In this document: one piece after another, positions 32,591 to 49,848 of the stretch
Numbering within the stretch: the stretch's first letter is position 1
Layout: each line of letters opens with the position of its first letter
Program-made: the position numbers and the translations under genes
IMG/VR virus record: IMGVR_UViG_3300036831_000053
Coordinates: 1-60,437 of that record
Length of the DNA stretch: 60,437 nucleotides
Strand: one strand, 5' to 3'
Source of the DNA: a virus
The notes under the pieces: model-generated
What the model was told of the DNA's origin: nothing
Database searches by the model: none
Seen by the model: the letters and a program-made list of their open reading frames with translations, nothing else

Positions 32591-32592
32591 CC

Positions 32593-33060: not shown

Positions 33061-33063
33061 CGG

Positions 33064-33093
33064 TTGTGCCCCGTTGAGCGTGCGGGGTACATT
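33064..33093 (+). promoter_or_regulatory. Palindromic promoter-operator, copy 3
   Basis: TTGTGC at 33064-33069, 18-bp spacer, TACATT at 33088-33093. The arms span 33066-33090. ATG 33100 follows the -10 by 6 nt, predicting a leaderless mRNA. Confidence 0.78.
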
Positions 33094-33099
33094 GGGTCC

Positions 33100-33972: not shown

Positions 33973-34049
33973 TCCTTTCGTGCATTGCCTTGGGCGCAGC
34001 TCTCGCCTCTCTCGTCCTGGCCATCGTGGCTTACCGGGGGACGAAGTGA
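33969..34049 (+). CDS. 26-residue membrane peptide
   Basis: ATG 33969 to TGA 34049. Nearly the whole peptide is one hydrophobic helix (CIALGAALASLVLAIVAY) with a basic end. It overlaps genes on both sides by four bases, which supports translation. Confidence 0.5.
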   Translation: MILSCIALGAALASLVLAIVAYRGTK

Positions 34050-34426: not shown

Positions 34427-35085
34427 TGGCCCGGGGCCACTCGCTGCACGGCGCGATCGTCGGCCTGGCACTCGCGCCGTTGGCGTGGCACCTCGACCCC
34501 GGCATGGGTCCGGTACTGGGGTCCGCCGCCTGGACCATCGGTACCACGATCGGTTCACTGGTGCCGGACCTCGACCACCCGAAGTCCAGGCTGACTCACG
34601 CGCTGGGACCGGTCACCTGGCTGATCAACAAGGTCCTGGTCCGGCTGTCGAAGTCGGTCTATTACCTCACCAGGAGCAACCAGGACTACCCGGACACCAA
34701 CGGGCACCGGTGCTTGACCCATACCCCCGTGTTTGCCGCTGTGCTGGCTGCTGCCGTGAGCTGGGGGCTGGCGGCTACCGACGCGCGACCGGCCGCTGTT
34801 CTCGTGGGAGCGGCCCTGGGGACCGGGTGTCTGGCCCATCTGTTCGGCGACTCCCTCACCAACTCCGGCGTGCCCTGGCTGTGGCCACTCAAGAACCGCA
34901 GCACCGGCCGCCGCTGGCAGCACTACGGGATCCCGAAGGTGATGCGGTTCGAGACCGGCGGCGGGACGAGCCATGGCAAGGCGCTCACCTGGAAGGCGCA
35001 CGGCGAGCACATCGTCACCGCCGCATCCATGGGTCTCGTGGTCGCGGTGCCGGCGTTCTACCTGGTCGCAGGGTGGGGGATATGA
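34426..35085 (+). CDS. YdjM-like metal-dependent membrane hydrolase
   Basis: A 219-residue polytopic membrane protein of the YdjM/DUF457 family. The metal-site pattern is visible: GHSLHG at the start, LVPDLDHPKS near residue 45, and HRCLTHTP near residue 95. Four or five hydrophobic segments run through the protein. Its substrate is unknown; family members are proposed phospholipid or membrane hydrolases. Confidence 0.75.
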   Translation: MARGHSLHGAIVGLALAPLAWHLDPGMGPVLGSAAWTIGTTIGSLVPDLDHPKSRLTHALGPVTWLINKVLVRLSKSVYYLTRSNQDYPDTNGHRCLTHTPVFAAVLAAAVSWGLAATDARPAAVLVGAALGTGCLAHLFGDSLTNSGVPWLWPLKNRSTGRRWQHYGIPKVMRFETGGGTSHGKALTWKAHGEHIVTAASMGLVVAVPAFYLVAGWGI

Positions 35086-35384
35086 GCCCGGCCTGGGTGC
35101 TGGTCATGCCGATCGCCGGTCTGGTCATCACCGTGCTGGTCGTGCTGTTCACGGTGTCCAACCTGATCCGGGATGGCATCCGGCGGCGGGTCGGGCCATG
35201 GCGTGGGACCTGGATCTTGAACAACACCCCAAGGTCGCAGCCGCACCACTGCCGTCTCCCGCGTGCCAGCTCTCGCAGGCGACGTGACCAGTGGCGATGC
35301 GAGACCTGCGACCGGGTCTACAGGCAGCACGCGGTGCATGGGGGGTTCGGAGATGTGTTCTGGATCTGGAAGGAGCGCGGATGA
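35082..35384 (+). CDS. Membrane-anchored basic protein
   Basis: A 100-residue protein with one N-terminal membrane segment (VLVMPIAGLVITVLVVLF) followed by a strongly basic region and one zinc-like pair (CETC). It overlaps the preceding and following genes by four bases. Confidence 0.62.
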   Translation: MSPAWVLVMPIAGLVITVLVVLFTVSNLIRDGIRRRVGPWRGTWILNNTPRSQPHHCRLPRASSRRRRDQWRCETCDRVYRQHAVHGGFGDVFWIWKERG

Positions 35385-35704
35385 AGATCAGCGGAGAGAT
35401 GGCCACCTATGAGCTGCGCCTGGAGGACGTGGGCGTGGTGATGAACCGGTGGGATGAGGAGTTCCTGCCGGCCAAGGCCACGGCCTACTGGAGCAAGGAC
35501 GAATCGGGCACCTGGGTGATCGAGGTCGTGAACATCAGCGGCCCCGGCATCCTCAAGAAGACCGGCGAGCTGGGCACACGCACTCGGACCGAGTGGTACG
35601 ACGCCAAGACGGTGACGGAGCTGCCGGGGGGCCTGTGGGCGCAGATCCTGGCCAACAAGCCCCTCAACGGCGTGGTGGCAGCCGAGGTCGCCTTCGTCGA
35701 CTGA
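35381..35704 (+). CDS. Hypothetical protein
   Basis: A 107-residue beta-rich protein starting at ATG 35381. It is the last gene before a strong terminator. Its function is unknown. Confidence 0.65.
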   Translation: MKISGEMATYELRLEDVGVVMNRWDEEFLPAKATAYWSKDESGTWVIEVVNISGPGILKKTGELGTRTRTEWYDAKTVTELPGGLWAQILANKPLNGVVAAEVAFVD

Positions 35705-35712
35705 GACAGCCA

Positions 35713-35751
35713 GAGACCCCCCTGACTGATGTCGCTGGTCAGGGGGGTCTC
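35713..35751 (+). terminator. Rho-independent terminator
   Basis: GAGACCCCCCTGAC (35713-35726) pairs perfectly with 35738-35751, followed by TCTGTGT. It ends the 33100-35704 run. Confidence 0.75.
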
Positions 35752-35934
35752 TCTGTGTCCCGGTGGGCCAAACTGGAGCCGGTCCAAATCTACCGGACCG
35801 TAGGTCGATCTTACACCTTGTATCCGCAGGTCAGGCGCTATGTTGATGTTGAACGAAGATCGTTGATCTCAGGTCGCACGGACGCCTGCGCCCATTATGC
35901 GCGGTCGTCCGTGCGAGACATGCGACGCGACACG
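35752..35934. other. Non-coding junction with inverted repeats between convergent operons
   Basis: No gene is supported here. An 11-bp perfect inverted repeat, TCGCACGGACG (35874-35884) with 35906-35916, encloses an inner GCGC...GCGC pair and may terminate the minus-strand operon. The preceding 35800-35870 stretch is comparatively A/T-rich. No integrase gene is present to make this an attachment site. Confidence 0.5.
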
Positions 35935-37842
35935 TCACGCGGACGCTTGCGCGCGCACGGGCTCGGGCCCGCGCATCCATGTGCCCGCGAGCGCGTGCGC
36001 TTCACCCGCGTCGCGGGCCTGCGCGAGGTGTCGGTAGACGGTGGCCCGGGCGACTCCGGCCCTGGTGGCGATGTCATCGGCCTTGCCGGGGCCTTGGTCG
36101 AGGACGGCGAGGATGTCAGCGTGGGTCTTGTCGGCACCTTCGGCGGGGATGTCGATGTCGTCGACCTCGGGCACTGCGGCGCCGGCCCCGGTGAGGGCCT
36201 TCCAGCCCTTGGGCTCCATGCGCCGTTCGAGCCGGGCCGCAGCGTCGATGTGGGCTTTCACGTCCCTCTGCCGCACGTAGAAGCCCTTGGCGATGTTGGC
36301 GGTCTTGTGCTCGCTGTCCTGGAGCAGGTACTGGCCGATCTTCAGGCCGTGGCTGTACCAGCCGTAGCGCTTCTGGTCGCCCCACAGCACCGAGGAGGCG
36401 TGCTGGTCGAGCATGAGGCTCACGATGGCCGTGAGCTGGGACTGGAGCTCCTTCGCCCCGGTGTCGGCCTTGCTGCCGTTCTGGCAGGCCAGGATGAGCT
36501 TGCCGCCGCACTTGCGGATCCTCTTGCCGATTCGGCCGATGAGGGCGAGCCACTTCGCGCCAGCTTTGCCCAGGTCATTGGCCTCGGCCACGAAGTCGGG
36601 GTACTCGTCGATGATCACCACGAGCCAGGGGGTGTCCACGGAGGGCTCGATCACGTCGGACTGCTCGCCCGGCCGCAGCGAGCTGTCCCGTAGGTCTTCC
36701 TCGCGGCTCTCGATCCAGGCCATGATCCGGGTCAGCATCACGCAGGTCGACTCGAAGTCAGTGGCCAGCGGCAGATCGAGCACCGGCTGCCACATGGCCA
36801 GGGTCGCGCCACCAGCCATGTCGGCGGCGATGATGTGGCAGTCCTGCATCGACGACAGCCAGATCATCAGGGTGCGCAGCCAGATCGACTTGCCGGAGCC
36901 GGACGCGCCGACCAGCAGGGTGTGTTGGAGGCGGTAGGGGTCGTCGTTGCCGTCGGCGTGCAGGCCCATCGGGAAGCGCGCATCGGTGCTGACCAGGGTG
37001 ATCGAGCCGGGCGTGGGCATCGGGTGCGGGATGTTGCCCTTCCACGGGTCGCGCGGCAGGAACCGGAACTGGACTTGGCGGGCGTTCTCCGCCACCGGCA
37101 GCAGGTAGACGCTGCTCAGGCGCATCCCGTAGAAGCTGGCGAGCTGGTCCATGGACTCCGGCCGGCCGGCCATCGCGGCCGTGGCACCCTCGCGGAGCCG
37201 GACGGTCAACAGGGACTGGCCCCGGTTGCCAGTGGCCCCGACAACTTTGGACCCGTGCAGCTCCCGGATCGGACCCCGGTCCTTGTTCGACAGGATCCGC
37301 CAGCGCCGCGCGTACCGGTCCGAACGGCCCGCGACCCGAATGCGACGGTGGTACCACCAGACGCCACCGAAGCCGACGGTACCGGCCAGCCACCAGTACT
37401 CCGTGATCGTCGAAGGACCGGCCCCGACACGCAGGGCCAGCCAGCCGCCGAGGGCCGCCGTGAAGGTACCGACGTAGATCCGCTCCGGTACCCGGTCCAG
37501 GACGCCCTTGCGGCCGGCATCCACCGAGTCCGGTACCACCCACATGATGGCCTTGGACCACGGTCCCGAGAGCCGAGGACCGAGTACCGCCAGCGTGGCA
37601 CCGCAGATGGGCAGTACCAGGGCCACCCACCAGGTCCAGCTGGCACCGAAGCGCCAGATCAGGGCCACGATCTCGGTACCGGTACCGAACCAGAGCGGCG
37701 TGAGGAACCGGCGCCAGCGCCACGACAGGTGGGCGATACCACGACCGATCGGCCGCAGGATCCACCGGAAGACCGCGTACATCACGATCCCGGTGACGAT
37801 GCCCTCGCCGAACAGCTTCTCCAGGGGGTGTTTGTCGCTCAT
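35935..37842 (-). CDS. TraB/FtsK-like DNA translocase
   Basis: A 635-residue protein on the minus strand. Residues about 15-170 contain four likely membrane spans. The motor has Walker A LVGASGSGKS near residue 314 and Walker B WLVVIIDEYPDF near residue 405. The last 80 residues are a winged helix (THADILAVLDQGPGKADDIATRAGV), as in the DNA-reading gamma domain of FtsK and of conjugative TraB of Streptomyces plasmids. It may move phage or plasmid DNA across a septum or membrane. Its ATG overlaps the stop of the DUF2637 gene. Confidence 0.85.
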   Translation of the reverse strand: MSDKHPLEKLFGEGIVTGIVMYAVFRWILRPIGRGIAHLSWRWRRFLTPLWFGTGTEIVALIWRFGASWTWWVALVLPICGATLAVLGPRLSGPWSKAIMWVVPDSVDAGRKGVLDRVPERIYVGTFTAALGGWLALRVGAGPSTITEYWWLAGTVGFGGVWWYHRRIRVAGRSDRYARRWRILSNKDRGPIRELHGSKVVGATGNRGQSLLTVRLREGATAAMAGRPESMDQLASFYGMRLSSVYLLPVAENARQVQFRFLPRDPWKGNIPHPMPTPGSITLVSTDARFPMGLHADGNDDPYRLQHTLLVGASGSGKSIWLRTLMIWLSSMQDCHIIAADMAGGATLAMWQPVLDLPLATDFESTCVMLTRIMAWIESREEDLRDSSLRPGEQSDVIEPSVDTPWLVVIIDEYPDFVAEANDLGKAGAKWLALIGRIGKRIRKCGGKLILACQNGSKADTGAKELQSQLTAIVSLMLDQHASSVLWGDQKRYGWYSHGLKIGQYLLQDSEHKTANIAKGFYVRQRDVKAHIDAAARLERRMEPKGWKALTGAGAAVPEVDDIDIPAEGADKTHADILAVLDQGPGKADDIATRAGVARATVYRHLAQARDAGEAHALAGTWMRGPEPVRAQASA

Positions 37843-38798
37843 GCCGACTTCTCCTTGACGGCGCGGGCAATGTTGCCCGCTCGGTTGGTGCCGAGGCCGT
37901 ACGCGGTTGCGATGGCCCGGCGTGAGGTGAGTCCTTCGTCCATGGCGCGCTGGATCAGATCTTCGTCGGACAGGTGTGCGTGGCTGGCCCGCTCGACCGG
38001 TGCCGAGACCTCGGCTGCCTCGCGGCGTGCCGGCTGCACCTTGGCCGGGGCCGGGTCAACGGTGGCCGGGTCGAACTTGCCGGGCTGCTCGTCGGTGATC
38101 CTGGGCATGATCTGGGTGCGCTCGGCGTCGTTGTCGGGCACGTTCACCGGGAGCGGCTTGACCAGCTCGGGCGCGGTGCTAACGGGGGTGAGCGGGGGGG
38201 TGTGCATCTCGGGTACTTCCTCGCGGGTCGCGAAGATCTTCGGGTACTCGGCCCACGCCTGCTCGGCCTCGGCCGCCATGCGCAGAACCTGGCCGTCGAT
38301 CCACTCCTGAGTGGCTACTCGGTCGCGGTGGGCTGCCTGGTTAAGGTCGGGGTGCTGCTCCTGGTAGCCCGTGTAGATGGGGTCCGGCACCGTCGGGGGA
38401 AGGTCCGGTACCGGCTCGATGGCCTTGACACTGGTACCGGGCTGGCCGTGCTTGTGGAGGACTAGCAGCATCCAGGCCAGCATGGCCGGCGCGATACCAC
38501 CGAGCAGGGCCGCCAGTGCGGTACCGGCCACCAGGTAGTGGTCGGCCACGTTGCTGGCCAGGGAGAGGCCGATAGAGGTGAGAGCCAGCGCGCCGGCCGC
38601 CCGCTGTGCTGCGGTGCGACGCATCCAGATGTCGACGGCCAGGGCCGTGACGGCGTCCAGGCAGATCGGGAAGGCCCAGGCCCGCAGGCCGAACCCGGCC
38701 CGAACGGCCAAATCCTGGCTGGAGCTGAACGAGATCCAGGCAGTACCGGCCACGGTGAGCAGCGCGAGACCGCGCAGGCGGATGGTCTTCAGGTTCAC
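37839..38798 (-). CDS. DUF2637 membrane protein
   Basis: A 319-residue protein from GTG 38798 with GAGGAGGA upstream. Residues 1-125 hold four membrane spans in the DUF2637 arrangement (SQDLAVRAGFGLRAWAFPIC LDAVT region). The middle is Pro-rich; the C-terminal 50 residues form a helix-turn-helix (SDEDLIQRAMDEGLTSRRAI). DUF2637 proteins accompany TraB-like genes on actinobacterial plasmids and integrative elements, probably in plasmid spread. Confidence 0.82.
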   Translation of the reverse strand: MNLKTIRLRGLALLTVAGTAWISFSSSQDLAVRAGFGLRAWAFPICLDAVTALAVDIWMRRTAAQRAAGALALTSIGLSLASNVADHYLVAGTALAALLGGIAPAMLAWMLLVLHKHGQPGTSVKAIEPVPDLPPTVPDPIYTGYQEQHPDLNQAAHRDRVATQEWIDGQVLRMAAEAEQAWAEYPKIFATREEVPEMHTPPLTPVSTAPELVKPLPVNVPDNDAERTQIMPRITDEQPGKFDPATVDPAPAKVQPARREAAEVSAPVERASHAHLSDEDLIQRAMDEGLTSRRAIATAYGLGTNRAGNIARAVKEKSA

Positions 38799-38986
38799 TA
38801 GTCCTCCTCGGTGGGGCCGAACGCGGCGACCCGTTCGCGCTTGGTCAGGACGTGGTGGACCTGGCACCAGGCGATGAAGCCAAGGAACTCCAGGACCACG
38901 GCGAGGTACCAGCTCTCGGCGAGCGATACCGCGAAGGCGCCGACGAGTACCGCGCCGAGTACCAGGGTGGTCTTCATGGGTACCAT
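38798..38986 (-). CDS. Small membrane protein of the translocase operon
   Basis: A 62-residue protein with two hydrophobic segments and a basic tail. ATG 38986 is placed 5 nt after a weak -10 on the minus strand; ATG 38977 is an alternative. It is the first gene of the minus-strand module and overlaps the DUF2637 start. Confidence 0.6.
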   Translation of the reverse strand: MVPMKTTLVLGAVLVGAFAVSLAESWYLAVVLEFLGFIAWCQVHHVLTKRERVAAFGPTEED

Positions 38987-39018
38987 TGTCGCATGTGCCC
39001 CACGCATTTACGGGGTGC
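38984..39018 (-). promoter_or_regulatory. Diverged palindrome, candidate minus-strand promoter
   Basis: On the plus strand GTGCCCC (38995-39001) and GGGGTGC (39012-39018) are spaced as in the dispersed family, with two mismatches. On the minus strand a weak -10 (CACATG) lies 5 nt before ATG 38986. It pairs with copy 4, 60 bp away, in a divergent control region. Confidence 0.4.
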
Positions 39019-39053
39019 TACCTGCGGAAACAGGATTGACCCACGAAAAGGGG

Positions 39054-39082
39054 TTGTGCCCCGCAGTACCACGGGGTAGATT
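39054..39082 (+). promoter_or_regulatory. Palindromic promoter-operator, copy 4
   Basis: TTGTGC at 39054-39059, 17-bp spacer, TAGATT at 39077-39082. The right arm has one change (GGGGTAG). The next start, GTG 39137, lies about 45 nt beyond the expected transcript start, so this copy gives a leader rather than a leaderless mRNA. Confidence 0.7.
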
Positions 39083-39136
39083 TGCCCTCACAACAGCAGA
39101 GCGGGAACGCGGTCAGGGGGTGTCCCGACTGACCGG

Positions 39137-39475
39137 GTGACCGCTACAACCGAAGATCACAACCGAAAGCGAGATCCACCCGCGTTCCTGGAGCAGCGCG
39201 TGGCCGAGATCGAGGAGAAGGCGGGCGTCGCGGTGGTGCGGCCGAAGCAGACCATCGAGGTCCTGGCGAAGCAGTTCAACCTGACCGAGGCCGAATCCGA
39301 CGGCATCCTGGGCCACTTCATGGCGGGCGGCTCCCCGACCGCTGGCGGTGTGGCCAACGCGTTCACCTCGTTCAGCCAGACGGTACGTTCGGCCGAGCGC
39401 TCCGACGCCATCGAGCAGGTGGCCATCGAGGCGATGAACGTGGCCGCAGCTCAGGCCCGGCTCGCCAACCGCTGA
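39137..39475 (+). CDS. DUF932 C-terminal-like protein
   Basis: A 112-residue protein from GTG 39137. The segment from about residue 35 (IEVLAKQFNLTEAESDGILG, then GGVANAFTSFSQ) resembles the C-terminal end of phage DUF932 proteins; the large N-terminal domain of that family is missing. It stands alone between a divergent control region and a terminator. It may be a relic or a small regulatory version. Confidence 0.6.
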   Translation: MTATTEDHNRKRDPPAFLEQRVAEIEEKAGVAVVRPKQTIEVLAKQFNLTEAESDGILGHFMAGGSPTAGGVANAFTSFSQTVRSAERSDAIEQVAIEAMNVAAAQARLANR

Positions 39476-39480
39476 TCCAC

Positions 39481-39509
39481 GCGGGGCGCCCACCCCGAGG
39501 GCGCCCCGC
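39481..39509 (+). terminator. Hairpin terminator upstream of tRNA
   Basis: GCGGGGCGCCC at 39481-39491 pairs perfectly with 39499-39509, loop ACCCCGA, followed by CTT. Confidence 0.65.
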
Positions 39510-39514
39510 CTTCC

Positions 39515-39586
39515 GCCTCCGTAGCTCAGTGGCAGAGCGGCCGGTTTCTACCCGGCAACGCGTCGGTTCGAGTCCGACCGGGGGCA
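39515..39586 (+). tRNA. tRNA-Arg (anticodon UCU)
   Basis: A full cloverleaf can be drawn. The acceptor stem is GCCTCCG (39515-39521) with CGGGGGC (39579-39585), one T-G pair. The D stem is GCTC/GAGC. The anticodon stem is GCCGG/CCGGC with loop TTTCTAC, giving anticodon TCT (39547-39549). The T stem is GTCGG/CCGAC with loop TTCGAGT. The discriminator base is A; CCA is not encoded. It should read AGA (and AGG by wobble), codons that are rare in high-GC hosts. Confidence 0.9.
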
Positions 39587-39620
39587 CGCGGAACACCCGC
39601 AGAACAGGAAGGGGCATGGC

Positions 39621-39977
39621 ATGGAGACCGAGGAGCCGGAGACCAAGCGGTACATCACCGCCGAGCAGCTGCGGTACCTGCCCTTCGATGTGGCCTACGC
39701 GCCCGCTGGTGGCCTCGTCGAGGTGTACCTGAACTACTGGTGGGCGGTGAACCCGACAAAGGGGCTCGTCTTCTTCCAGCGCAACACTCGGGCCGATGCG
39801 GTCGCGCAGTGCAACCGGTCGGAGGCCATCGCCAAGAAGGTCGCCGAGGTCTATGACCCGAGCTTGGGCATCGTCGTGACGCACGTGGAGCGGGCCTACG
39901 TCCCCAAGTCGATGGTCTACAGCCGCCTCAACGGCACCGAGCTGGCCACCGACCTGCGCGGCAAGGCCGTGCGGTGA
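39621..39977 (+). CDS. Hypothetical protein
   Basis: A 118-residue protein from ATG 39621 after AGGAAGGGG. It mixes strands and helices without a known motif, and shares a GTGA overlap with the next gene. It is transcribed just after the tRNA. Confidence 0.62.
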   Translation: METEEPETKRYITAEQLRYLPFDVAYAPAGGLVEVYLNYWWAVNPTKGLVFFQRNTRADAVAQCNRSEAIAKKVAEVYDPSLGIVVTHVERAYVPKSMVYSRLNGTELATDLRGKAVR

Positions 39978-40285
39978 ACAAGCGCGAGTTGAAGCAGTGG
40001 GTCAAGGCCGAGCAGCCGTTCTTGGTGGACAACGTGCGGGGGATCAAGTACCCGACGTGGGACCAGATCGGCACGGGCAAGCTCAGCCGCAACATGGGCG
40101 CCCAGTTGACCGACGAGGCGCCGCACGTCCGGTACATCGTCTACGTAGGCGTGACCCCGGTGGCCTGGATGCTCCAGGACGACAGCCCGTGCGTGGTCAA
40201 CGAGGAGTTCGACCACGACATCCAGGCGTGGATCAAATCCGCGTGGGGCTGCAACGTCTACGAGGAGGTGCCGGACCGGTGGTGA
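39974..40285 (+). CDS. Hypothetical protein
   Basis: A 103-residue protein starting at GTG 39974. It contains a beta-rich middle (VRYIVYVGVTPVAWMLQ). Nothing in the sequence points to a function. Confidence 0.62.
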   Translation: MNKRELKQWVKAEQPFLVDNVRGIKYPTWDQIGTGKLSRNMGAQLTDEAPHVRYIVYVGVTPVAWMLQDDSPCVVNEEFDHDIQAWIKSAWGCNVYEEVPDRW

Positions 40286-40758
40286 AGAGGCGGCGCAAGC
40301 GTGGCCTACTGGCCCGACTCGTCCTCGCGTTCGTGGCCACGGCCGGGAAGCACGGCAAGAAGCAGGCCACACGGGCCGGTGGCGGCCTGAAGACCGCGCT
40401 GGGCCCAAAGGTGCTGCGGAAGGCGTCGGAGGAGTACGGCGGCAAGCGCAAGGCCAACGCCCCGATCCCCGTGGTCGTGTGCCCGGTCCAGCCCGAGGCG
40501 GCAGCCGACCGGTGGGAGATCTCGGCCATGGTCGGCGGCTACCACGTGCCGTTCGTGATGGTGGCCGACTACGACATCAGCGAGCTGGACGACGAACGCG
40601 TGGTCACGATGGCCGTCCTGGCGGCTTGTCACATCACTCACGACCAGCGGCCGATCGAGCACTGCTGGGAGGTGACCCAGCTGGTCGCGACGGGGGATGC
40701 GGCGCTGACCTGGTTCGGGAGCGCTGGCCACTTCCCGACGCACGTGATCAAGCAATGA
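40282..40758 (+). CDS. Basic hypothetical protein
   Basis: A 158-residue protein from GTG 40282 with a very basic N-terminal 55 residues (VKRRRKRG, then KHGKKQATR) and an acidic, beta-rich C-terminal domain. The N-terminus could bind DNA or RNA. Confidence 0.6.
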   Translation: MKRRRKRGLLARLVLAFVATAGKHGKKQATRAGGGLKTALGPKVLRKASEEYGGKRKANAPIPVVVCPVQPEAAADRWEISAMVGGYHVPFVMVADYDISELDDERVVTMAVLAACHITHDQRPIEHCWEVTQLVATGDAALTWFGSAGHFPTHVIKQ

Positions 40759-40769
40759 TGATCATGTCG

Positions 40770-40785
40770 TAACCTCTGCGGCATG
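40770..40785 (+). promoter_or_regulatory. Leaderless promoter candidate before 40783
   Basis: TAACCT at 40770-40775 lies 7 nt before ATG 40783; there is no ribosome binding site. Confidence 0.4.
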
Positions 40786-40917
40786 AATCGGTGGGGGACG
40801 ATCGACCGGCTCATTCGCGTGCGGCGCGCGGTGAGTCGGTCGATTCCGTATGTGGTGCTCGGCGGTGCGTCGGCGGCGGTACTGGTCATGGTGGGCTGGG
40901 CCTATTTCGCCAGATGA
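40783..40917 (+). CDS. 44-residue membrane peptide
   Basis: A basic N-terminal 20 residues followed by one membrane helix (YVVLGGASAAVLVMVGWAYF). It is placed directly behind a leaderless-type -10 box, which supports its reality. Confidence 0.5.
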   Translation: MNRWGTIDRLIRVRRAVSRSIPYVVLGGASAAVLVMVGWAYFAR

Positions 40918-40923
40918 GGGACC

Positions 40924-40953
40924 CTGTACCCCGCCACGCAGACGGGGTACATT
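40924..40953 (+). promoter_or_regulatory. Palindromic promoter-operator, copy 5
   Basis: CTGTAC at 40924-40929, 18-bp spacer, TACATT at 40948-40953. Arms GTACCCCG/CGGGGTAC span 40926-40950. ATG 40986 follows after a short leader with GAGAGGCAAGAG, so this copy gives a leadered mRNA. Confidence 0.75.
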
Positions 40954-40985
40954 GGACAAGCAGAGCTGACAACGAGAGGCAAGAG

Positions 40986-41369
40986 ATGGCAACGGTAAGC
41001 AAGATGGAGCCCGAGGCCGAAGCGCAGATGTGGATGGCCTCCTGGGGGTTCACCGGCGCGTCCGGCGCGACCAACGGGGCTGTGTCCGGGCTCGTCGAGT
41101 TCGTGAACCTGGCGAACGCCCGGCAGTCCCTGGTGTCCTTCGCCGAGGACGCGGTGGAGAAGGACTCGCGAGAGCGTCAGTCGATGATCAGCACGCTGGG
41201 CAGGGAAGAGGGCGAGAGCCTGCCGGACATGGCCCACGAGTGGGACCAGAAGCGACACCTGGTGGGCTCGTTCCGGGAGTGGAACCGCGAGTTCTCGCTG
41301 ACCCTGGAGAGCTGCACCGGCCATCACCTGGAGTTCCGCATCGAGTGGGATGGCGCTGCGGACGAGTGA
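40986..41369 (+). CDS. Hypothetical protein
   Basis: A 127-residue protein, single gene between promoter copies 5 and 6. The first half is helical with a small hydrophobic part, the second half acidic (ESCTGHHLEFRIEWDG at the end). The start is ATG 40986. Confidence 0.68.
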   Translation: MATVSKMEPEAEAQMWMASWGFTGASGATNGAVSGLVEFVNLANARQSLVSFAEDAVEKDSRERQSMISTLGREEGESLPDMAHEWDQKRHLVGSFREWNREFSLTLESCTGHHLEFRIEWDGAADE

Positions 41370-41391
41370 GCCAGATCGCAGCCGATTCGAT

Positions 41392-41421
41392 ATGTACCCC
41401 GCACGAGTTGCGGGGTACAGT
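41392..41421 (+). promoter_or_regulatory. Palindromic promoter-operator, copy 6
   Basis: ATGTAC at 41392-41397, 18-bp spacer, TACAGT at 41416-41421. The arms are perfect over 10 bp (GTACCCCGCA and complement, 41394-41403 and 41409-41418). A 35-nt leader with AAGGAG leads to ATG 41460. Confidence 0.78.
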
Positions 41422-41459
41422 CGTCTTATCAGGTTGAACAACCGAACAAGGAGTCATAG

Positions 41460-41798
41460 ATGACCAGCACCGAACCCGGCGTCGCCTCCGTGGCCACTCA
41501 GCGCGTCCGCCGTGTCCTCGCTGACCTGTTCGACGAGATGCCCGAGGTCTGGACCAACAGCACCGTGACCGTGACCCGAGTCCTGTTCAGCATGAACATC
41601 GTGGACTCACGCCTGCGGAACGGCGTCACCCGCGAAGACGTGCCGCAGGCGCTGAGCAAGGTCTTTCTCTCGGCCCGCGTCACCTGGGACCAGGAGCTGA
41701 TCAGCATCACCTGGACCCCCGAGGCCGACGAGGACCGTCCACTGCCCCGCGAGTACGACACCCCCGAGGACTACCCCGGCCCCGACTTCGACATCTGA
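41460..41798 (+). CDS. Hypothetical protein
   Basis: A 112-residue protein with an acidic, proline-rich tail. A helical N-terminal half (ATQRVRRVLADLFDEMPEVW) precedes a beta part. The function is unknown; first gene of a run behind promoter copy 6. Confidence 0.65.
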   Translation: MTSTEPGVASVATQRVRRVLADLFDEMPEVWTNSTVTVTRVLFSMNIVDSRLRNGVTREDVPQALSKVFLSARVTWDQELISITWTPEADEDRPLPREYDTPEDYPGPDFDI

Positions 41799-41873
41799 GC
41801 CGAAACGCCCTGCGGGGCGTCGCGGGAATCGAGACCCGCCTGATGATGGCTCCCATGGACAGGAGAACGGACG

Positions 41874-41978
41874 ATGGCCAAGGAAAGCAAGCCGGTCAAG
41901 GAGACCGAGAAGCGGATCAACGAGGCGAACAAGTCCGGCAAGTCGGCGGACGAGAAGCTGCGCGACCTGATCAAGTAA
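41874..41978 (+). CDS. 34-residue highly charged peptide
   Basis: ATG 41874 with AGGAG upstream. Nearly half of the residues are Lys or Glu, in a helix-forming pattern (SADEKLRDLIK). A good ribosome binding site and isolated position support it. Confidence 0.5.
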   Translation: MAKESKPVKETEKRINEANKSGKSADEKLRDLIK

Positions 41979-41992
41979 CGGGGAACCGACGA

Positions 41993-42022
41993 CCCGGCCG
42001 GGCTCACGACAGCCCGGCCGGG
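41993..42022 (+). terminator. Perfect hairpin between small genes
   Basis: CCCGGCCGGGCT (41993-42004) pairs with 42011-42022. No T-run follows, so termination would be weak. Confidence 0.45.
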
Positions 42023-42042
42023 CAACCCAAGGAGAACACACG

Positions 42043-42330
42043 ATGCACACGATCCACATCCACCGGGAAGACGAGGGGCAGTGCTACGAGTTGAGCGTGG
42101 ACGGCCAGTTCGTCACGGCTAGCGACAACGAGAAGCTGATCGGCGCGGCCGTCCTGGAGCAGCTGGCGAAGCTCGGCGAGGTCTGCCTGATCGGCATCAC
42201 CGACCTGGCGCCGGAGAAGCGGGCCGTCCGGCAGGCCGAGAAGCTGGCCAAGGTGCGCCTGTCCGTGACGACCGAGGCCCAGGCGCGCGTGCAGGACGCA
42301 CGTCGGCAGCCGGAGCCGTGGCGAGCATGA
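42043..42330 (+). CDS. Hypothetical protein
   Basis: A 95-residue protein after AAGGAGAACACACG. The first 60 residues alternate strands and helices, the rest is basic. The last codons overlap the next gene by ATGA. Confidence 0.62.
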   Translation: MHTIHIHREDEGQCYELSVDGQFVTASDNEKLIGAAVLEQLAKLGEVCLIGITDLAPEKRAVRQAEKLAKVRLSVTTEAQARVQDARRQPEPWRA

Positions 42331-42782
42331 GCCGCCCACTGTTCCGCCCGGCCGAGGCGGAGACCCTGACGGAGTTGTTGGGGCACATCGCGACGCATCC
42401 TGTTATCGAGTGGTGCGTCATCACCGCGTCCCGCACCTACGCCCGCGCCGGCACGATGCGGGCCATCCTGGAGTGCCTGCCGTCCTCGACGCGCCTGCGG
42501 CACGGTGCGGCGCGCGGCGGCGACCGACTGGCCGGACAGATCTGGGTCTGGCTCGGCCGGGAGCTGACCGAGTATCCGGTGACGGCGGAGCAGTGGCGCC
42601 TGACCCGCCGCGCTGGCCACCTCCGCAATCAGCTGATGCTGGAGGGGCGCGCGGGCGAGCCACGCGCCGACATCTGCCTGGAGTTCAACCGCGACCACAG
42701 TGCCGGCGCTGCCGACTGCGCGGCACGGGCGCGGCTGCTCGACATCCCCACCTTCACCTTCCCGTACACGACAGGGGCCTGA
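42327..42782 (+). CDS. SLOG-family (YspA/DUF2493-like) protein
   Basis: A 151-residue protein with the nucleotide-binding Rossmann-like SLOG pattern: CVITASRTY, RHGAARGGDRLAGQIW, then AGHLRNQLML. SLOG proteins are thought to bind or sense nucleotide ligands and often occur in defence or stress systems. The start is ATG 42327, coupled to the previous stop; GTG 42318 is an in-frame alternative. Confidence 0.75.
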   Translation: MSRPLFRPAEAETLTELLGHIATHPVIEWCVITASRTYARAGTMRAILECLPSSTRLRHGAARGGDRLAGQIWVWLGRELTEYPVTAEQWRLTRRAGHLRNQLMLEGRAGEPRADICLEFNRDHSAGAADCAARARLLDIPTFTFPYTTGA

Positions 42783-42785
42783 CTC

Positions 42786-43232
42786 ATGGGCTGGATTAAT
42801 GGCGGTCGGCCACAGGGCCGGGCGCACAAGTGCTCACCACCACCGATCCTGCGGTTGGGCCGCTTCGGTGCCGACGTGGGATCGCAGTGGTCCTGCGACG
42901 ACTGCACCTGCGTGTGGGAGGTGTGGAAGACCGTCGGTGGTCAGTTCAGCTGGCGCAAGCTCGTCGACGAGGCCGACCGCGAGGAGACTGGCTCGCTGCA
43001 CCTCGGCAAGCCGCAGCCCGGCCCGACCGTGACCGAGGACGGCGCCCGGCTGATCCCGCACGCGCGGGAGTCGTTCGTGGCAGCCCTCGCCGACACCTTC
43101 CACGCGGGTGACATGAACGAAGACCAACGCGTCTGGTTGGTCGGCCAGCTCCTGGGCAAGTTGGAGGGCTGGGCGTACATCGCCTTCCCCGCGTCCGTTC
43201 CCGGCGCTACCGTGGACGGCGGTACTGATTGA
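42786..43232 (+). CDS. Hypothetical protein with Cys pair
   Basis: A 148-residue protein with CDDC near residue 38 and an earlier Cys at 17, perhaps a partial zinc site. The rest is helical. There is no recognised family. Confidence 0.6.
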   Translation: MGWINGGRPQGRAHKCSPPPILRLGRFGADVGSQWSCDDCTCVWEVWKTVGGQFSWRKLVDEADREETGSLHLGKPQPGPTVTEDGARLIPHARESFVAALADTFHAGDMNEDQRVWLVGQLLGKLEGWAYIAFPASVPGATVDGGTD

Positions 43233-43257
43233 CCCCCGACCGGTACCGACCCCTGAT

Positions 43258-43294
43258 GTGCCCCGGAAGTGTCCCGACACGACCGGGGCACATT
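43258..43294 (+). promoter_or_regulatory. Extended variant palindrome
   Basis: GTGCCCCGG (43258-43266) and CCGGGGCAC (43283-43291) are arms like those of the dispersed family, but the spacing is 9 bp longer because an inner inverted repeat GTGTC-CC-GACAC is nested in it. CACATT follows. It may be a terminator for the upstream run as well as an operator; ATG 43312 lies 18 nt beyond. Confidence 0.45.
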
Positions 43295-43311
43295 TATGCG
43301 ACCATAGGGTT

Positions 43312-43674
43312 ATGAAAACCGAGGTCGAGCCCAGCCTGGTGTACTTCACCTGGTTCCCGGCAACGGTGCTGTTCCCCCGCGAGGAGGGGCAGCGCGTGCA
43401 GCGAATGGCGCACACCGCGCGGGTCTACGCCACCGACGCGGGCCTGTACGTCTACTCCAGCGCCAACGGGCGCATCCAGTTGGACTTCAACTCGCCCATC
43501 GACTACAGCCAGACCGTGAAGCCGGTCAACGGGCTGCCCGGCTACGCGCACGACGTGCACACCGAGGCCGGCTTGGTCGTGGTTACCAAGACCGGCGGCT
43601 GCGGCTGCGGCAACCCGGCCAAGGGCTACCGGCCTTCCTACGCCCACCAGGTGGCGGCATGGCCAACCGTGTAG
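43312..43674 (+). CDS. Hypothetical protein with CGCG motif
   Basis: A 120-residue, strand-rich protein starting at ATG 43312. The C-terminal GGCGCGNPAKGY segment could form a small metal site. It overlaps the next gene by 16 nt. Confidence 0.62.
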   Translation: MKTEVEPSLVYFTWFPATVLFPREEGQRVQRMAHTARVYATDAGLYVYSSANGRIQLDFNSPIDYSQTVKPVNGLPGYAHDVHTEAGLVVVTKTGGCGCGNPAKGYRPSYAHQVAAWPTV

Positions 43675-43949
43675 CCAAGACGTACCAACCGGCGGATCTC
43701 GGCCGGGCAACCCTGCGGAGCGACGGCCGACAGCTGGGGATCGTCTGCCCGGATTGCTCGGACTTCCTGCCGATGGGCTTAGAGCTGCACCTGGTCCAGG
43801 ACACGGCAATGGATCATGGATTCGTCACCGCGCGCCTCAAGGTCGAGAACATGGACGAGATCACCGACCAGTTCCGTCGGCACGTCGTCGCAGACCCGGG
43901 CGCCCACCCGTCATTCGCCACTCCCGTTACCGAGGGCTCGATAGGCTGA
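43659..43949 (+). CDS. Hypothetical protein
   Basis: A 96-residue protein with one CPDC pair near residue 29. It is acidic at the C-terminal end. It is the last gene before the second structural block. Confidence 0.6.
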   Translation: MANRVAKTYQPADLGRATLRSDGRQLGIVCPDCSDFLPMGLELHLVQDTAMDHGFVTARLKVENMDEITDQFRRHVVADPGAHPSFATPVTEGSIG

Positions 43950-43986
43950 GCCTGCATCTCGCAACCGCAACCAGACGGAGGCTCCC

Positions 43987-44328
43987 GTGGCCGCAAGTCC
44001 CATCGCAGCGCAGGCGTTCGGCATGGAGCCGCTCGGTGCGCTGAACTTCTCCGACCTGGGCGCCGGCACCGCCGCCGACGCCACCAACGGCAACAGCACC
44101 CCGAACAATGGCGCGACCATCCTCGTCTGCCTCGGCACGGCGGCCGACACCGTGGTGGTGACCCGGCCCGAGGAAGGCAGCTCGAACGCGGCCAGCCAGG
44201 CGATCGTGGCCAACCACCTCTCGTTCATGGGTCCGTTCGAGACCGACATCTACGGCCCGACCCTCAACTACAAGGCCGGCGCCACGACCACCAAGGTGTG
44301 GCCGGTGCAGCTGGCCGAGCTGGACTGA
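43987..44328 (+). CDS. Virion decoration-like small beta protein
   Basis: A 113-residue protein from GTG 43987 with GACGGAGG upstream. It has the pattern of phage surface beta sandwiches: NGATILVCLGTAADTVVVT, then HLSFMGPFETDIYG near residue 78. Similar small proteins decorate capsids or tails. It opens the portal-protease block. Confidence 0.6.
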   Translation: MAASPIAAQAFGMEPLGALNFSDLGAGTAADATNGNSTPNNGATILVCLGTAADTVVVTRPEEGSSNAASQAIVANHLSFMGPFETDIYGPTLNYKAGATTTKVWPVQLAELD

Positions 44329-44331
44329 CCC

Positions 44332-44592
44332 GTGGTCGACAACCAGCACAAGCAGATCACCGGCTACCGCGACCTGCCGCAGCACGACCTCGACCTGGTC
44401 AATGAAATCAAGGCGGTCGAAGTGGAGCTGGCTCGGCTGTGGCAGAAGGTCCAGAGCCGCCAGTTCATGGTCGCCGAGGAGCCACAGGTGGACCGCCGCT
44501 GGCTGGCTGTCGCCCGGACTCACTTCCAGGAGGGCTTCAGCGCCCTGGTGCGCTCGGTGACCCGGCCGACCGACCCGTTCGATCCGCAGTGA
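44332..44592 (+). CDS. acb2: Acb2/Tad1-hairpin domain protein, cyclic-nucleotide sponge
   Basis: An 86-residue protein that matches the Acb2 family pattern: NQHKQITGYRDL at residue 4, a helix with LVNEIK, and near the end DRRWLAVARTHFQEGFSALVRSVTRP. Acb2 proteins bind cyclic di- and trinucleotide signals made by host CBASS (and related) defences and so protect the phage. The gene starts 3 nt after the previous stop and lies in the structural block, where it would be made during late infection or packaged conditions. Confidence 0.82.
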   Translation: MVDNQHKQITGYRDLPQHDLDLVNEIKAVEVELARLWQKVQSRQFMVAEEPQVDRRWLAVARTHFQEGFSALVRSVTRPTDPFDPQ

Positions 44593-44864
44593 GCAACCAC
44601 GCAGGAAGCGACCCGGCTCGGGAGACTGAGCCGGGTCGCACGCTTCCGGCCAACCTCGTTCGGGCGATGGCCGAGCAGCACCGGCCGCGCAGGCGCCGAG
44701 ACACCATGGCTGCCGTCGAGCAGTACGTGATGTGGTGCAAGGCGTGCGACGGTCACAACCGCCGGGTCTGGCGGCCAGGAGACGAGCCGGTCGAGTGCAC
44801 GTTCGTCGAGGCGCTGCGGACGGTCGGGATCGACGTGAGCGATCCACTGGAACTGGATGAGTGA
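44589..44864 (+). CDS. Hypothetical protein
   Basis: A 91-residue protein from GTG 44589 in overlap with the Acb2-like stop. The N-terminal half is basic (HRPRRRRD); a single CKAC pair lies near residue 56. Function unknown. Confidence 0.58.
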   Translation: MSNHAGSDPARETEPGRTLPANLVRAMAEQHRPRRRRDTMAAVEQYVMWCKACDGHNRRVWRPGDEPVECTFVEALRTVGIDVSDPLELDE

Positions 44865-44971
44865 TGGGCGAATGGTTCGATCAGCATCTCGAATGGGTCT
44901 GGCTCGCCACGATCGTGATCTTCCTGGTCCTCATGTGGATCGTCGCCGGTCCAACGCCACGCTGGCCGTAG
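44864..44971 (+). CDS. 35-residue membrane peptide
   Basis: ATG 44864 overlaps the previous TGA. The centre is one membrane span (WLATIVIFLVLMWIVAG). The next gene begins inside it in another frame. Confidence 0.48.
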   Translation: MGEWFDQHLEWVWLATIVIFLVLMWIVAGPTPRWP

Positions 44972-45276
44972 TCGACGCCCTGGCCGTAGCCCGCGTCGTC
45001 CGCTTCCTCCAGCAGGACACCTTGATCGACAAGCAGCGGCATCAGCTCCAGGACTGGCTGGCCCGCCACGGCCACTACAAGGCGATGGAGCTGCTGGACT
45101 GCCCGTGGTGCCTGAGCGTGCACGTGGCCGCCGCCTGGACCGCACTGCGGATCATCGCCCCACGACTCGCCACGCCGATCGGTACCGCGCTGGCAAGCTC
45201 GTACGCAGCATCGGCACTCATCGAGATCAACGCGGCAATACAGGCAAAGCAGGCAGGCGAACCAGGAGGCGACTAA
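44935..45276 (+). CDS. DUF1360-like membrane protein
   Basis: A 113-residue protein from GTG 44935. The motif LLDCPWCLSVHVAAAW near residue 54 is typical of DUF1360 proteins, and hydrophobic segments follow. Such proteins often lie just before portal genes in actinophages. Upstream in-frame codons reach 44857, but they overlap the membrane peptide gene. Confidence 0.68.
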   Translation: MDRRRSNATLAVVDALAVARVVRFLQQDTLIDKQRHQLQDWLARHGHYKAMELLDCPWCLSVHVAAAWTALRIIAPRLATPIGTALASSYAASALIEINAAIQAKQAGEPGGD

Positions 45277-45277
45277 C

Positions 45278-47968
45278 GTGGGCTGGTTCGCCGCACGCAC
45301 CGGCAACACTGACCGCGACGGCAAACGCACCAACCAGCCCAGCGCCTCCATGACCGCCGCAGGCAGCCGCATCAACCTGCAAGACCGCAACGCCGTCAAC
45401 ACCATCGCCGCCACCAAAATGGGCTGGCAACACCAAGCCTGGAACTACCGCGACCTCATCGGCGAACTGGCCAGCGCCCTGCGCTTCCGAGCCAACGCCA
45501 TCGCCAAAGTCGCCCTCATTATCGGCCAAGTCAACGAAGACGCCGACACCCCCATCCCCGCCGACAGCCCCGAATCCACCCTCGACCCGATCGTGGCCCG
45601 CGCCGCCCAAGACGCCCTGTCGCGGCTGCCGTGGCGCAACGGTGGAGCGTTCGGCGGCCGGATAGACACCTGCTTCGGGACGACCGGCGAGGCATGGCTG
45701 CACGGCAAGACCGACCCGGCTACGGGCGAGGAGCGCTGGACGGTTCGGTCCACCGACGAGATCACCCCGGTGATGGGTGGCAGCAACCTGGGCATCGTCG
45801 AAGTGCCTGGTCGGCCGGCGATCCCGATCGACAAGAACAAAGAGGCCCTGCTGCGGCTGTGGAACCCTCACCCGCGTTTCGCGATGCTGGCTGACAGCCC
45901 GATCCGCTCCATGCTGCCGGTGTGTGAGGACATCGTGCTGATTGCCCGGGAGATCCAGGCGGCCAGCAAGTCCCGTATCGCGGCCAACGGCCTGCTGCTG
46001 GTCCCGCACTCGATGAGCATGATCCGGGCGACACCGGGCGGCCAGGAGGGTGATGCCGAGGTCGAGGACTTCGCGGCCGGCCTGGAGGCGGCGATGATGG
46101 CGCCGATCGCGAACGAGGGCGACGCGGGCGCGGTGGTGCCGATCGTGATCCGGGGCGACAGCGAGGACATCGGCGCGGTCAAGCACCTGTCGATGGTCCG
46201 TGAAACCAGCCCGATCTTGATCGAGAAGCTCGACAACGCCCTTAAGCGCATGGGCGAGACCCTCGACGTACCGCCCACGGTGGTGACCGGCCTCCAGGAC
46301 ACCAACCACTGGAACGCCTATGTGATCTCCGACGAGACGTGGACCAACCACATCGAGCCTGGTGAGCGGCTCATCGTCGACTCCCTGACCGAAGGCTTCC
46401 TGCGGCCGATCCTCCAGCTGCCGACCACGGCCGGTGGCTACGGCCTGACTCGCCAGCAGGCGCAGACCGTGCAGGTCTGGTACGACGCCAGTGGTGTCAC
46501 CAAGAACCCGAACCGCAGCCAGGACGCCCAAGCAGCGTTCGCTCTCGGTGCGATCGGCTTCAAGGCGCTCTTGCGGGACATGGGCTTCGACGAGTCGGAC
46601 GCGCCCACCGAGCAGGAGGCGATGCAGATGCTGGCGTTCAAGCAGACGCCGGATCCGGCCACCGCCGCTCAGCTCATCAACCTGGCGTTCCCCGGCGTCC
46701 ACCTGGTCGTGCAGGCGCCTGGTTCGACCGAGCAGCCGGCCGTGGGTGGCCCGGCCGTGGTGCAGAGCAGGCCAGCTCTACCTGCCGGACAGCAGCAGGG
46801 TCAGCCACCGAGCACGCGGCTACCGGCCGGGCAGGCCAGCGTGCCGGCACAGGGCAACACTGGCCAGCCCATCGCACCCACGGCAGTCCGAGGTGCGGCA
46901 GATCAGCAGCGAGTACTCGATTCAGTACGGCTGCTCAGCGCTCAGCCGCTCGTCGACCTGGACCGCCAGCTGCGGGACCGGCTGCTCGACGCGGCCGACA
47001 TGGCCATCACCAACGCCGTCGAGAAGGCCGCCAAGCGGATCGTCTCGGCCGCTCAGCACAAGGTTGCCGCCGACGTGCTGAGTCAGTTCCACGGTGCCGA
47101 GCTGGCCGCCTACATCGGGCCAGAGGGCGTCGCCGAGCTGGGTCTGACCGAGGAAGCGCTGCTGAGCGCGGCATTCGCCTACCTGTACGAGAAGTTCATG
47201 GCCTGGTCGCTGTCCACGATCGAGTCGGCAGTGAAGGTCGCGGTCAAGGTCTTCGGCCTGGAGCTGCACGCGGCCGCGTCGCTGCGCAGCAAGATGGCCG
47301 GACGCCGACAGAGGGCATGGCACGGGTTCGAGCACAGCGTGAAGCAGCGCGCCCTCGCGAAGCTGTACGGCAAGGGCGGTACCGCCGAGGACGACCACAT
47401 CGGCGAGAAGGTGGACAGCGTCGTCATGCCGGGTGATGTGCGGACTGCGCTGGCCGAGATCGGCGGCCAGTCCTCGGTGCACGGCCGGTCTCGGCAGCCG
47501 CTCGGCGGCATCGCGACGGGCCCGGACGTACTGTCCGAGGTCGACCGGCGGATGGACCGGGTGGGCTTCACGTGGGAGTACGGGATCACCGACGGCCGGC
47601 GCCACGCGCATTTCCTGCCGCACATGGAGCTGGACGGCCAGCGGTTCTCCGGCTGGGATGATGCCGCGCTCCAGACCAGCGACGCCTACTCGTGGGTGGG
47701 CGATCACTACAAGCCCGGCGACCACAAGGGCTGCATGTGCGACTACGTGTGGGTGTGGGCACTCGACGAGCACAGCGCCGAGATCCAGCGGCAGCTCAAC
47801 GAGCCGGAGTCGCCGAGCATGGCCGGCAACCGACTCATGGCCGACCTGGACAACGCGGCCGGGCGGACCGGCACCACGGCTCAGCGCAACGTGGCTCAGC
47901 GGGAGCGCGTGCTGGCGGCGCAACGGCGCTGGCTGGCCAATGCCAACAACGCAAGGAGTGGATCATGA
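45278..47968 (+). CDS. Portal protein fused to a MuF-like domain
   Basis: An 896-residue protein from GTG 45278. Residues about 40-460 form the portal: DLIGELASALRFRANAIA, PSVYRIWNPHP-type LLRLWNPHPRF, and VPPTVVTGLQDTNHWNAYVI. A Pro/Gln-rich linker (about 470-530) leads to a MuF-like domain ending in SDAYSWVGDHYKPGDHKGCM. Portal and MuF are often separate genes; here one chain would carry both. The first 320 nt differ in base and codon use (AAA, CAA, GAA; C far above G) from the rest. Confidence 0.88.
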   Translation: MGWFAARTGNTDRDGKRTNQPSASMTAAGSRINLQDRNAVNTIAATKMGWQHQAWNYRDLIGELASALRFRANAIAKVALIIGQVNEDADTPIPADSPESTLDPIVARAAQDALSRLPWRNGGAFGGRIDTCFGTTGEAWLHGKTDPATGEERWTVRSTDEITPVMGGSNLGIVEVPGRPAIPIDKNKEALLRLWNPHPRFAMLADSPIRSMLPVCEDIVLIAREIQAASKSRIAANGLLLVPHSMSMIRATPGGQEGDAEVEDFAAGLEAAMMAPIANEGDAGAVVPIVIRGDSEDIGAVKHLSMVRETSPILIEKLDNALKRMGETLDVPPTVVTGLQDTNHWNAYVISDETWTNHIEPGERLIVDSLTEGFLRPILQLPTTAGGYGLTRQQAQTVQVWYDASGVTKNPNRSQDAQAAFALGAIGFKALLRDMGFDESDAPTEQEAMQMLAFKQTPDPATAAQLINLAFPGVHLVVQAPGSTEQPAVGGPAVVQSRPALPAGQQQGQPPSTRLPAGQASVPAQGNTGQPIAPTAVRGAADQQRVLDSVRLLSAQPLVDLDRQLRDRLLDAADMAITNAVEKAAKRIVSAAQHKVAADVLSQFHGAELAAYIGPEGVAELGLTEEALLSAAFAYLYEKFMAWSLSTIESAVKVAVKVFGLELHAAASLRSKMAGRRQRAWHGFEHSVKQRALAKLYGKGGTAEDDHIGEKVDSVVMPGDVRTALAEIGGQSSVHGRSRQPLGGIATGPDVLSEVDRRMDRVGFTWEYGITDGRRHAHFLPHMELDGQRFSGWDDAALQTSDAYSWVGDHYKPGDHKGCMCDYVWVWALDEHSAEIQRQLNEPESPSMAGNRLMADLDNAAGRTGTTAQRNVAQRERVLAAQRRWLANANNARSGS

Positions 47969-49848
47969 CCAAGCGGGCCCGGATCGCGCCGCGCGCCGCC
48001 GACGCTGCGGCCTCGGTCAGCGACGACCTCAATGACAAGGGCGAGTTGCCCTTGTTTTTCAACTGCCTCGCCGTCGAGGGCCTGTCCACCAGTGACGGCC
48101 GCACCATCAAGGCCGGCGCGCTCGGCCACCGCGCACTGCCCTTCTCGATCCTGGCGCAGTACACGAACCCGGGACAGCAGGGCGGCCACGCGGGCGCCGA
48201 GGTCATCGGCCACATGACCGAGCTGTGGCGCAAGCCCGGCCCCGAAGTGGTCAGCCGCGAGACCAACGAGCCGTTCCCCGAGGGCACGTACGTGTGGCAG
48301 GGCCGGGGCGTGGCCGATCCGGAGACGCGCGGCGGCAAGCTGGCCCGCGATCACCACCTGACCGGCAACAGCGTCGACCTGTCGGAGCTGGACTTCACCG
48401 AGGAGTTCGGCGACGACGACAAGCAGAAGATCACCATCACCCAGGGCAAGATCGCGGCCACGACGCTGTGCCCGATCCCCGCGTTCGCCGAGGCGTACGT
48501 GTCCATCGGCGACGACGACGCCGAGTTGACCGCCGACGGCGACCCCGGCGACATCCTGGTCAGCTTCGGTATGGGCCCGTCGCTGGCCGCGTCCCTGGCG
48601 GCCGACTGGACCTACAGCCTGCCGATGTTCCGTGCGGCCGACCTCGGCGACGAATGCGGCATGTGCTCGATCGAAGACGAGGACGCGGCCGACTGGTCCG
48701 AGCTGGCCAACGGCGAGTTCAGTCCCTCGGTGGCCAAGCGCAAGCGGGCCTTCGCGCGCGGCCTGGCCATGAAAGGCGAGAAGGCCGACGGCTCGGACGC
48801 CAGCTACCCGATCGAGAACCAGTCCGACCTCGACAAGGCCGCGCACATGGTCGGTCTCGGCAGCGACAGCAACGGTGCGATTACCGCGCACATCAAGAAG
48901 GCCGCCCGCAAGCTCGGCCTGAAGCTGCCCGCGTCGCTGACCGCAGGTGCGCCGTCGCTACCCTCGATCGCCCTGTTCGCCGATCCGGGCCTGGCCGCGC
49001 CGAGCCCGATCAGCATCGGCGCCTGCCGCGAGGACGGCCGCCGCGAGATCACCGGCCACATCGCGGTCTGGAACACCTGCCACGTGAGCTACAGCGACCG
49101 CTGTGTACGGCCGCCGCACTCGCGCACCGACTACGCCCGCTTCGCCACTGGAGCCGTCCACGTGGACGATGCCGGCACGAGTCGGGTCGCTGCGGTCGGC
49201 CACATCGCGATGAGCCGGGACACGGCGCACGGCGGTCACGCTGACGCCAACATGGGCCTGTCCGACACGGTGGCGTTCTACGACAACCACTGCACGGTGG
49301 CAGCCGATGTCGCGGCCGGCGAGGACGCCCACGGCATCTGGATCCACGGACTCACCCGGCCCGAACTGACCGAGGCCGACGTGCAGGCCCTGCTGGCCAG
49401 TCCGATGTCCGGCGACTGGCGCGGCCATCAGGGCAACCTGGAACTCTGCGCCGTCCTGGCCGTCAACACCCCCGGCTTCCCCGTGCCGCGTTCCCGGGTC
49501 GCCAGCGGTGAACCGGTCAGCCTCGTCGCGGCCGGTCTCCTCAAGCCCGGCGGCGAGTTCGCGGCTGGGCCGCTGTCGATCGCGGCGATCCAGTCGGTCG
49601 TGCAGACCGAGGTGATGAAGGCGTTGCAGGCATTCTTCGATCCGGACAACGACGGTGACATCGACCGGCCGATGGACACCGATGGCGACGCGGCGCCGGC
49701 CACCCAGCACACTCCGGCGAAGGATCAGGGCCAGTCGGGCGGCGATGCTCAGTCGGCGCTGAAGCCGAAGAAGTCGATGGCCGACCGCAAGGCCGACGCG
49801 CTGCTGTCGCTGCGGATGGGCTCGGCGGTCGGTCTGGTACAGCAGTGA
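47965..49848 (+). CDS. Capsid maturation protease
   Basis: A 627-residue protein starting in an ATGA overlap with the portal gene. The N-terminal 200 residues resemble the actinophage prohead protease region; the second half (from about residue 350) has the family patterns ITGHIAVWNTCH, RCVRPPHSRTDYA, and DVAAGEDAHGIWIHGLTRPE. A Lys-rich helical segment near residues 265-315 may be a scaffold part. It should trim the capsid protein after assembly. Confidence 0.75.
   Translation: MTKRARIAPRAADAAASVSDDLNDKGELPLFFNCLAVEGLSTSDGRTIKAGALGHRALPFSILAQYTNPGQQGGHAGAEVIGHMTELWRKPGPEVVSRETNEPFPEGTYVWQGRGVADPETRGGKLARDHHLTGNSVDLSELDFTEEFGDDDKQKITITQGKIAATTLCPIPAFAEAYVSIGDDDAELTADGDPGDILVSFGMGPSLAASLAADWTYSLPMFRAADLGDECGMCSIEDEDAADWSELANGEFSPSVAKRKRAFARGLAMKGEKADGSDASYPIENQSDLDKAAHMVGLGSDSNGAITAHIKKAARKLGLKLPASLTAGAPSLPSIALFADPGLAAPSPISIGACREDGRREITGHIAVWNTCHVSYSDRCVRPPHSRTDYARFATGAVHVDDAGTSRVAAVGHIAMSRDTAHGGHADANMGLSDTVAFYDNHCTVAADVAAGEDAHGIWIHGLTRPELTEADVQALLASPMSGDWRGHQGNLELCAVLAVNTPGFPVPRSRVASGEPVSLVAAGLLKPGGEFAAGPLSIAAIQSVVQTEVMKALQAFFDPDNDGDIDRPMDTDGDAAPATQHTPAKDQGQSGGDAQSALKPKKSMADRKADALLSLRMGSAVGLVQQ

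Follow-up and report, generated by a model that had tools for sequence, protein, structure and literature searches.

The window analysed here, a 60,437-nt stretch of DNA from an uncultivated virus (IMG/VR record IMGVR_UViG_3300036831_000053), carries at 44332-44592 on its plus strand an open reading frame of 86 codons with a GTG start and a TGA stop. The predicted product (MVDNQHKQITGYRDLPQHDLDLVNEIKAVEVELARLWQKVQSRQFMVAEEPQVDRRWLAVARTHFQEGFSALVRSVTRPTDPFDPQ) is considered Acb2-like from Pfam, PDB sequence matches, alignment, AlphaFold2/Foldseek, and a profile-versus-shuffle control. The initial annotation had described an 86-residue product with ordered Acb2 motifs; the frame is exactly as stated there, and all motifs are found, in the order DNQHKQITGYRDL...NEIK...RRWLAVARTHFQEGFSALVRSVTRP. 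GC content by codon position is 74/36/90%, the coding pattern expected in a 67% GC genome; the opposite strand is also open and has no match to the Acb2 family. Tailed-phage genes in the window comprise those for portal, protease, major head protein, tape measure, major tail protein, terminase, Erf, DnaB, and endolysin. The portal protein matches those of phages of Arthrobacter, Microbacterium, Mycobacterium, Gordonia, and Streptomyces, and because these are actinophages the host is likely to be an actinobacterium. The region 40000-60437 has no DNA-level relative in the phage collection.

The gene order at the locus is a 113-aa gene, acb2, a small gene, a DUF1360 gene, and portal. The 113-aa protein (43987-44328, plus strand) has no assigned function and no relatives in phage records or Pfam, and is 98% identical in an independent contig, L002, that has the same gene order; its gene ends 3 bases before the acb2 start codon, and with so short a gap the two genes are probably co-transcribed. 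About 17 bases past the acb2 stop codon lies a strong hairpin (44609-44640, plus strand; GCGACCCGGCTC-GGGAGACT-GAGCCGGGTCGC; z = -3.7), which is perfect, GC-rich, and identical in L002; no T run follows it, and as a terminator-like element it may end the acb2 transcript. Between acb2 and portal, the DUF1360 gene (44857-45276, plus strand) has an uncertain start codon, with a shorter alternative at 44935; beyond it are the genes for portal (45278-47968, plus strand; phrog_776, E = 1.3e-100) and head maturation protease (47965-49848, plus strand). The description of acb2 as lying in the structural block is broadly right: on one flank the gene is three genes upstream of portal and near the protease, but the other flank consists of small genes without known function back to the terminase (30776). 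The terminase-to-portal interval (32590-45278) spans about 13 kb, which is wide for an actinophage, and is made up mostly of such small genes, together with a tRNA-Arg (39515) and, on the minus strand, an FtsK-like gene (35935-37842).

One gene in this interval, 42327-42782, five called genes upstream of acb2, had been reported as encoding a SLOG-family protein. The reading frame exists, but no tool confirmed the family: its product matches no Pfam family at E ≤ 10, a directed search with PF10686 (YAcAr, SLOG clan) gave no match, and its sole match, to PHROG 289 (E = 2.4e-9), is labelled just "GTP-binding domain". By eye the product resembles YspA-like SLOG proteins (motif HGAARGGDRLA...RAGHLRNQLM); its AlphaFold model (pLDDT 44) is too poor to use, and a single-sequence search found no relatives in phage records or viral contigs. 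Nothing ties this gene to acb2, and it is best left out of the case for nucleotide-based immunity.

The acb2 copy in L002 is 93-94% identical in amino acid sequence to that of the window, compared with 99-100% for portal, protease, and DUF1360. Its pN/pS of 0.14 exceeds that of portal and protease (0.03-0.05) and resembles the values of two other small genes, g73 (0.13) and g69 (0.23). Purifying selection therefore acts on acb2, whose pace of change is not exceptional among small accessory genes. Decay to a non-functional remnant is most improbable for a full-length gene with a coding codon pattern and a pN/pS of 0.14 against the 93% identical copy of L002; what lends the idea some substance is a relative elsewhere, at L023:5675-5782, that matches in its last third only, apparently through a frame change, and may itself be a decayed copy or a sequencing error.

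The match of the 86-aa protein to the Acb2 profile is far beyond chance. Pfam Acb2_Tad1_hairpin (PF24729) scores it at 56.4 bits (E = 3.3e-15), about twice the cut-off of 27, and among PDB chains the only significant sequence matches are entries for PaP2 Acb2 (the 8h2j and 8ixz groups, E ~1e-11, aligned along almost the full length; 5.8e-12 for the 8h2j crystal sequence). A profile of relatives, built without the window protein and without the L002 copy, gives the protein E = 1.2e-35; the runner-up among 1009 six-frame segments has E = 4.4, and when the protein was shuffled 5000 times the lowest value obtained was 0.011. Homologues occur in 226 phage records, at up to 48% identity. The best tblastn matches of the window protein are Pseudomonas and Erwinia phages, and among the matches and host groups listed there is none from an actinobacterial phage.

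An AlphaFold2 model of the single chain (19-row alignment, mean pLDDT 84) contains two long helices, at residues 17-43 and 55-77, with low confidence for the N-terminal 4 residues; hairpin and N-terminal segment take up all 86 residues. The Acb2 protomer has two long antiparallel helices and a short N-terminal helix, and the model has the helical hairpin, with the short helix not resolved. The first eight Foldseek matches in the PDB are all Acb2 or T4 Vs.4 (probability 1.00), the best being 8h2j, 8h2x, and 7uq2 with TM scores of 0.58-0.68, and the first unrelated match is at the noise level (E = 2.6). The structure-prediction check proposed in the initial annotation therefore led to Acb2 structures. 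The model has no strand that could correspond to the N-terminal antiparallel beta-sheet that precedes the helical hairpin in Tad1.

Across 23 aligned homologues, which include PaP2, JBD67, and T4 Vs.4, residues G11, Y12, K27, R74, and P79 are invariant and N24, T63, and G68 nearly so. K27 aligns with K26 of PaP2 Acb2 and the conserved R56 with R67, residues that presumably have roles in ligand binding. Y12 aligns with PaP2 Y11 and T4 Y8, and a Y8A change in T4 Acb2 disrupts cyclic-dinucleotide binding (PMC12657218). Y12 and K27, both conserved, are the predicted cyclic-dinucleotide site residues. The base-stacking F82 of T4 aligns with T77 in the window protein and with alanine in PaP2, so this stacking contact is specific to the T4-like type of Acb2. 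The profile match, the PDB sequence matches, the predicted fold, and the conserved ligand residues all agree with the Acb2 assignment first made from the sequence alone, and support the view that 44332-44592 encodes an Acb2-family protein.

Acb2 proteins are homo-hexamers with three dinucleotide and two trinucleotide sites. The hexamer sequesters cyclic di- and trinucleotides (PMC12043709; PMC10419184). By homology, chains of the window Acb2 would assemble into a hexamer in which pockets between protomers, with Y12 and K27, would hold cyclic dinucleotides and separate sites would probably hold cyclic trinucleotides; host CBASS-type effectors would then stay off while the phage completes its late programme. 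This reading as a whole, a hexameric Acb2-family sponge that holds cyclic nucleotides and keeps host CBASS effectors off during the late programme, is highly probable. It is directly supported by family membership (from sequence and predicted chain fold), the conserved ligand residues, purifying selection, and the place beside late virion genes, and is extended by homology to the expected hexamer, binding, ligand range, late expression, and anti-CBASS effect. The ligand of the window protein cannot be named because ligand range differs between Acb2 homologues (PMC12043709). It is possible, if the less favoured outcome, that the fold is kept but that another nucleotide signal is mainly sequestered, such as a gcADPR isomer of Thoeris, cA3 of type III CRISPR, or some host-specific signal: Acb2 and Tad1 are grouped in one Pfam hairpin family, the loop between the two helices varies in length among the aligned homologues, and these sponges are promiscuous, with Acb2 preferring cA3 over cyclic dinucleotides and Tad1 binding gcADPR (PMC12043709). 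Conservation of the dinucleotide-site residues and an N-terminal NQHK-GYRDL segment that is that of PaP2 Acb2 argue for the CBASS-directed reading instead.

Among known systems, Acb2 of Pseudomonas phage PaP2 (p26; 8h2j, 8ixz) is matched over its whole length, including the N-terminal DNQHK-I-GYRDL, the ligand tyrosine and lysine, the RWLA and RA-AQP-like segments, and the predicted fold; the window protein differs in a shorter loop between the long helices, and its gene in its place by portal in an actinophage-like genome. JBD67 gp34, also from a Pseudomonas phage, belongs to the same family and is likewise encoded inside a virion-gene block, between the genes for major head protein and head-tail adaptor, but it has a longer inter-helix insertion, a Gram-negative host, and another gene order. 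T4 Vs.4 (Acb2; 7uq2) shares the fold by Foldseek and aligns at the G-Y, N, K, R, and P positions, but is only about 22% identical, lacks the NQHK segment, has F82 where the window protein has T77, and is encoded outside the virion block. The window gene is a PaP2-type acb2 in an actinophage-like genome, and both the family and its occurrence in actinophages have already been described: Acb2 is annotated in Microbacterium phage Statler and other cluster EG phages (PMC13348362) and in Mycobacterium phages Xandras and BigBubba (PMC11953737). These phages of Actinobacteria share the claimed function; Xandras gp101 (65 aa) has the same Pfam hairpin match but lacks the NQHK-GYRDL N-terminus of the window protein. 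With the present gene, the known range of well-formed Acb2 that has a full N-terminus of the PaP2 type comes to include uncultivated, actinophage-like siphoviruses of high GC content. It can reasonably be inferred that hosts of this phage use cyclic-nucleotide immunity, to which the gene points for hosts of such phages in general.

A scan of bacterial genomes found one relative, in a Burkholderia contig, which is no help on the host of the window phage; plasmid relatives are mostly from Klebsiella, Aeromonas, and Pseudomonas. A tree of 132 sequences and 74 columns does not resolve whether the actinophage-like acb2 copies have a single origin. It contains a well-separated 27-row branch of Acb2-hairpin proteins from viral contigs (e.g., L021, L022, and L056), some without the NQHK segment.

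The position of acb2 varies between phages. In related contigs the gene lies directly after portal and ahead of protease (L004, L010, and L020) or directly after the major tail protein gene (L008 and L009), and in a less clearly related contig, L003, it is near endolysin. In a non-random sample of 21 annotated phages, two of which (5400 and D14B) share the same acb2, the gene is among head and tail genes in seven (JBD67, Lsp-JY19, Vibrio 1.246.O, Thiohalocapsa MD04, Mwe-JY05, Vibrio D53, and Ab9), next to genes for lysis or packaging, or where the late block ends, in seven (5400, D14B, Zuri, phiB1_1, HHBS14_1, Vibrio 1.204.O, and VP882), and elsewhere in seven (SNUABM_47, MQM1, B8b, LASTA, Sortsne, PaP2, and T4). 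Because late genes take up roughly half of the genome in many phages, a place in or beside late genes in 14 of 21 phages of this non-random sample is only mildly above expectation. The gene lies within or next to the virion-gene block in the window, in contigs L002, L004, L008-L010, and L020, and in roughly two thirds of the sampled annotated phages, a location that would also suit a small virion or assembly protein with an Acb2 hairpin. This alternative is highly improbable, given that the position differs between related phages, which is rare for a virion part, that T4, Aeromonas MQM1, and Pseudoalteromonas B8b have their homologues among genes of early or replication functions, and that the nucleotide-pocket residues are conserved.

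For the Acb2 sponge, different places within the same block in related phages imply separate insertions or moves, a point that stands better than the count of 14 of 21, and suggest the hypothesis of repeated acb2 insertion for late expression. Such timing would make sense because a change in the major capsid gene lets phages without acb2 escape CBASS (PMC10419184). The fuller proposal, that acb2 has been repeatedly inserted at different points of virion-gene operons so that sponge production coincides with that of capsid and portal, when head proteins or assembly would trigger CBASS, is speculative and rather unlikely; if true, the position of acb2 would reveal the time, and perhaps the trigger, of CBASS activation in the hosts of such phages. 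The variable place of acb2 in the virion-gene block of related phages thus offers a simple testable idea on the timing of counter-defence.

A pairing of ClpP with acb2 was rejected as a general link, since ClpP is present in only 7 of 50 other acb2-bearing records and lies far from acb2 in the GAP32 record. A ClpP-type protease gene is found directly upstream of the acb2-like gene in mycobacteriophage Xandras (L024:9481-10459) and in Erwinia jumbo phage SNUABM_47 (L148:3272-4228).
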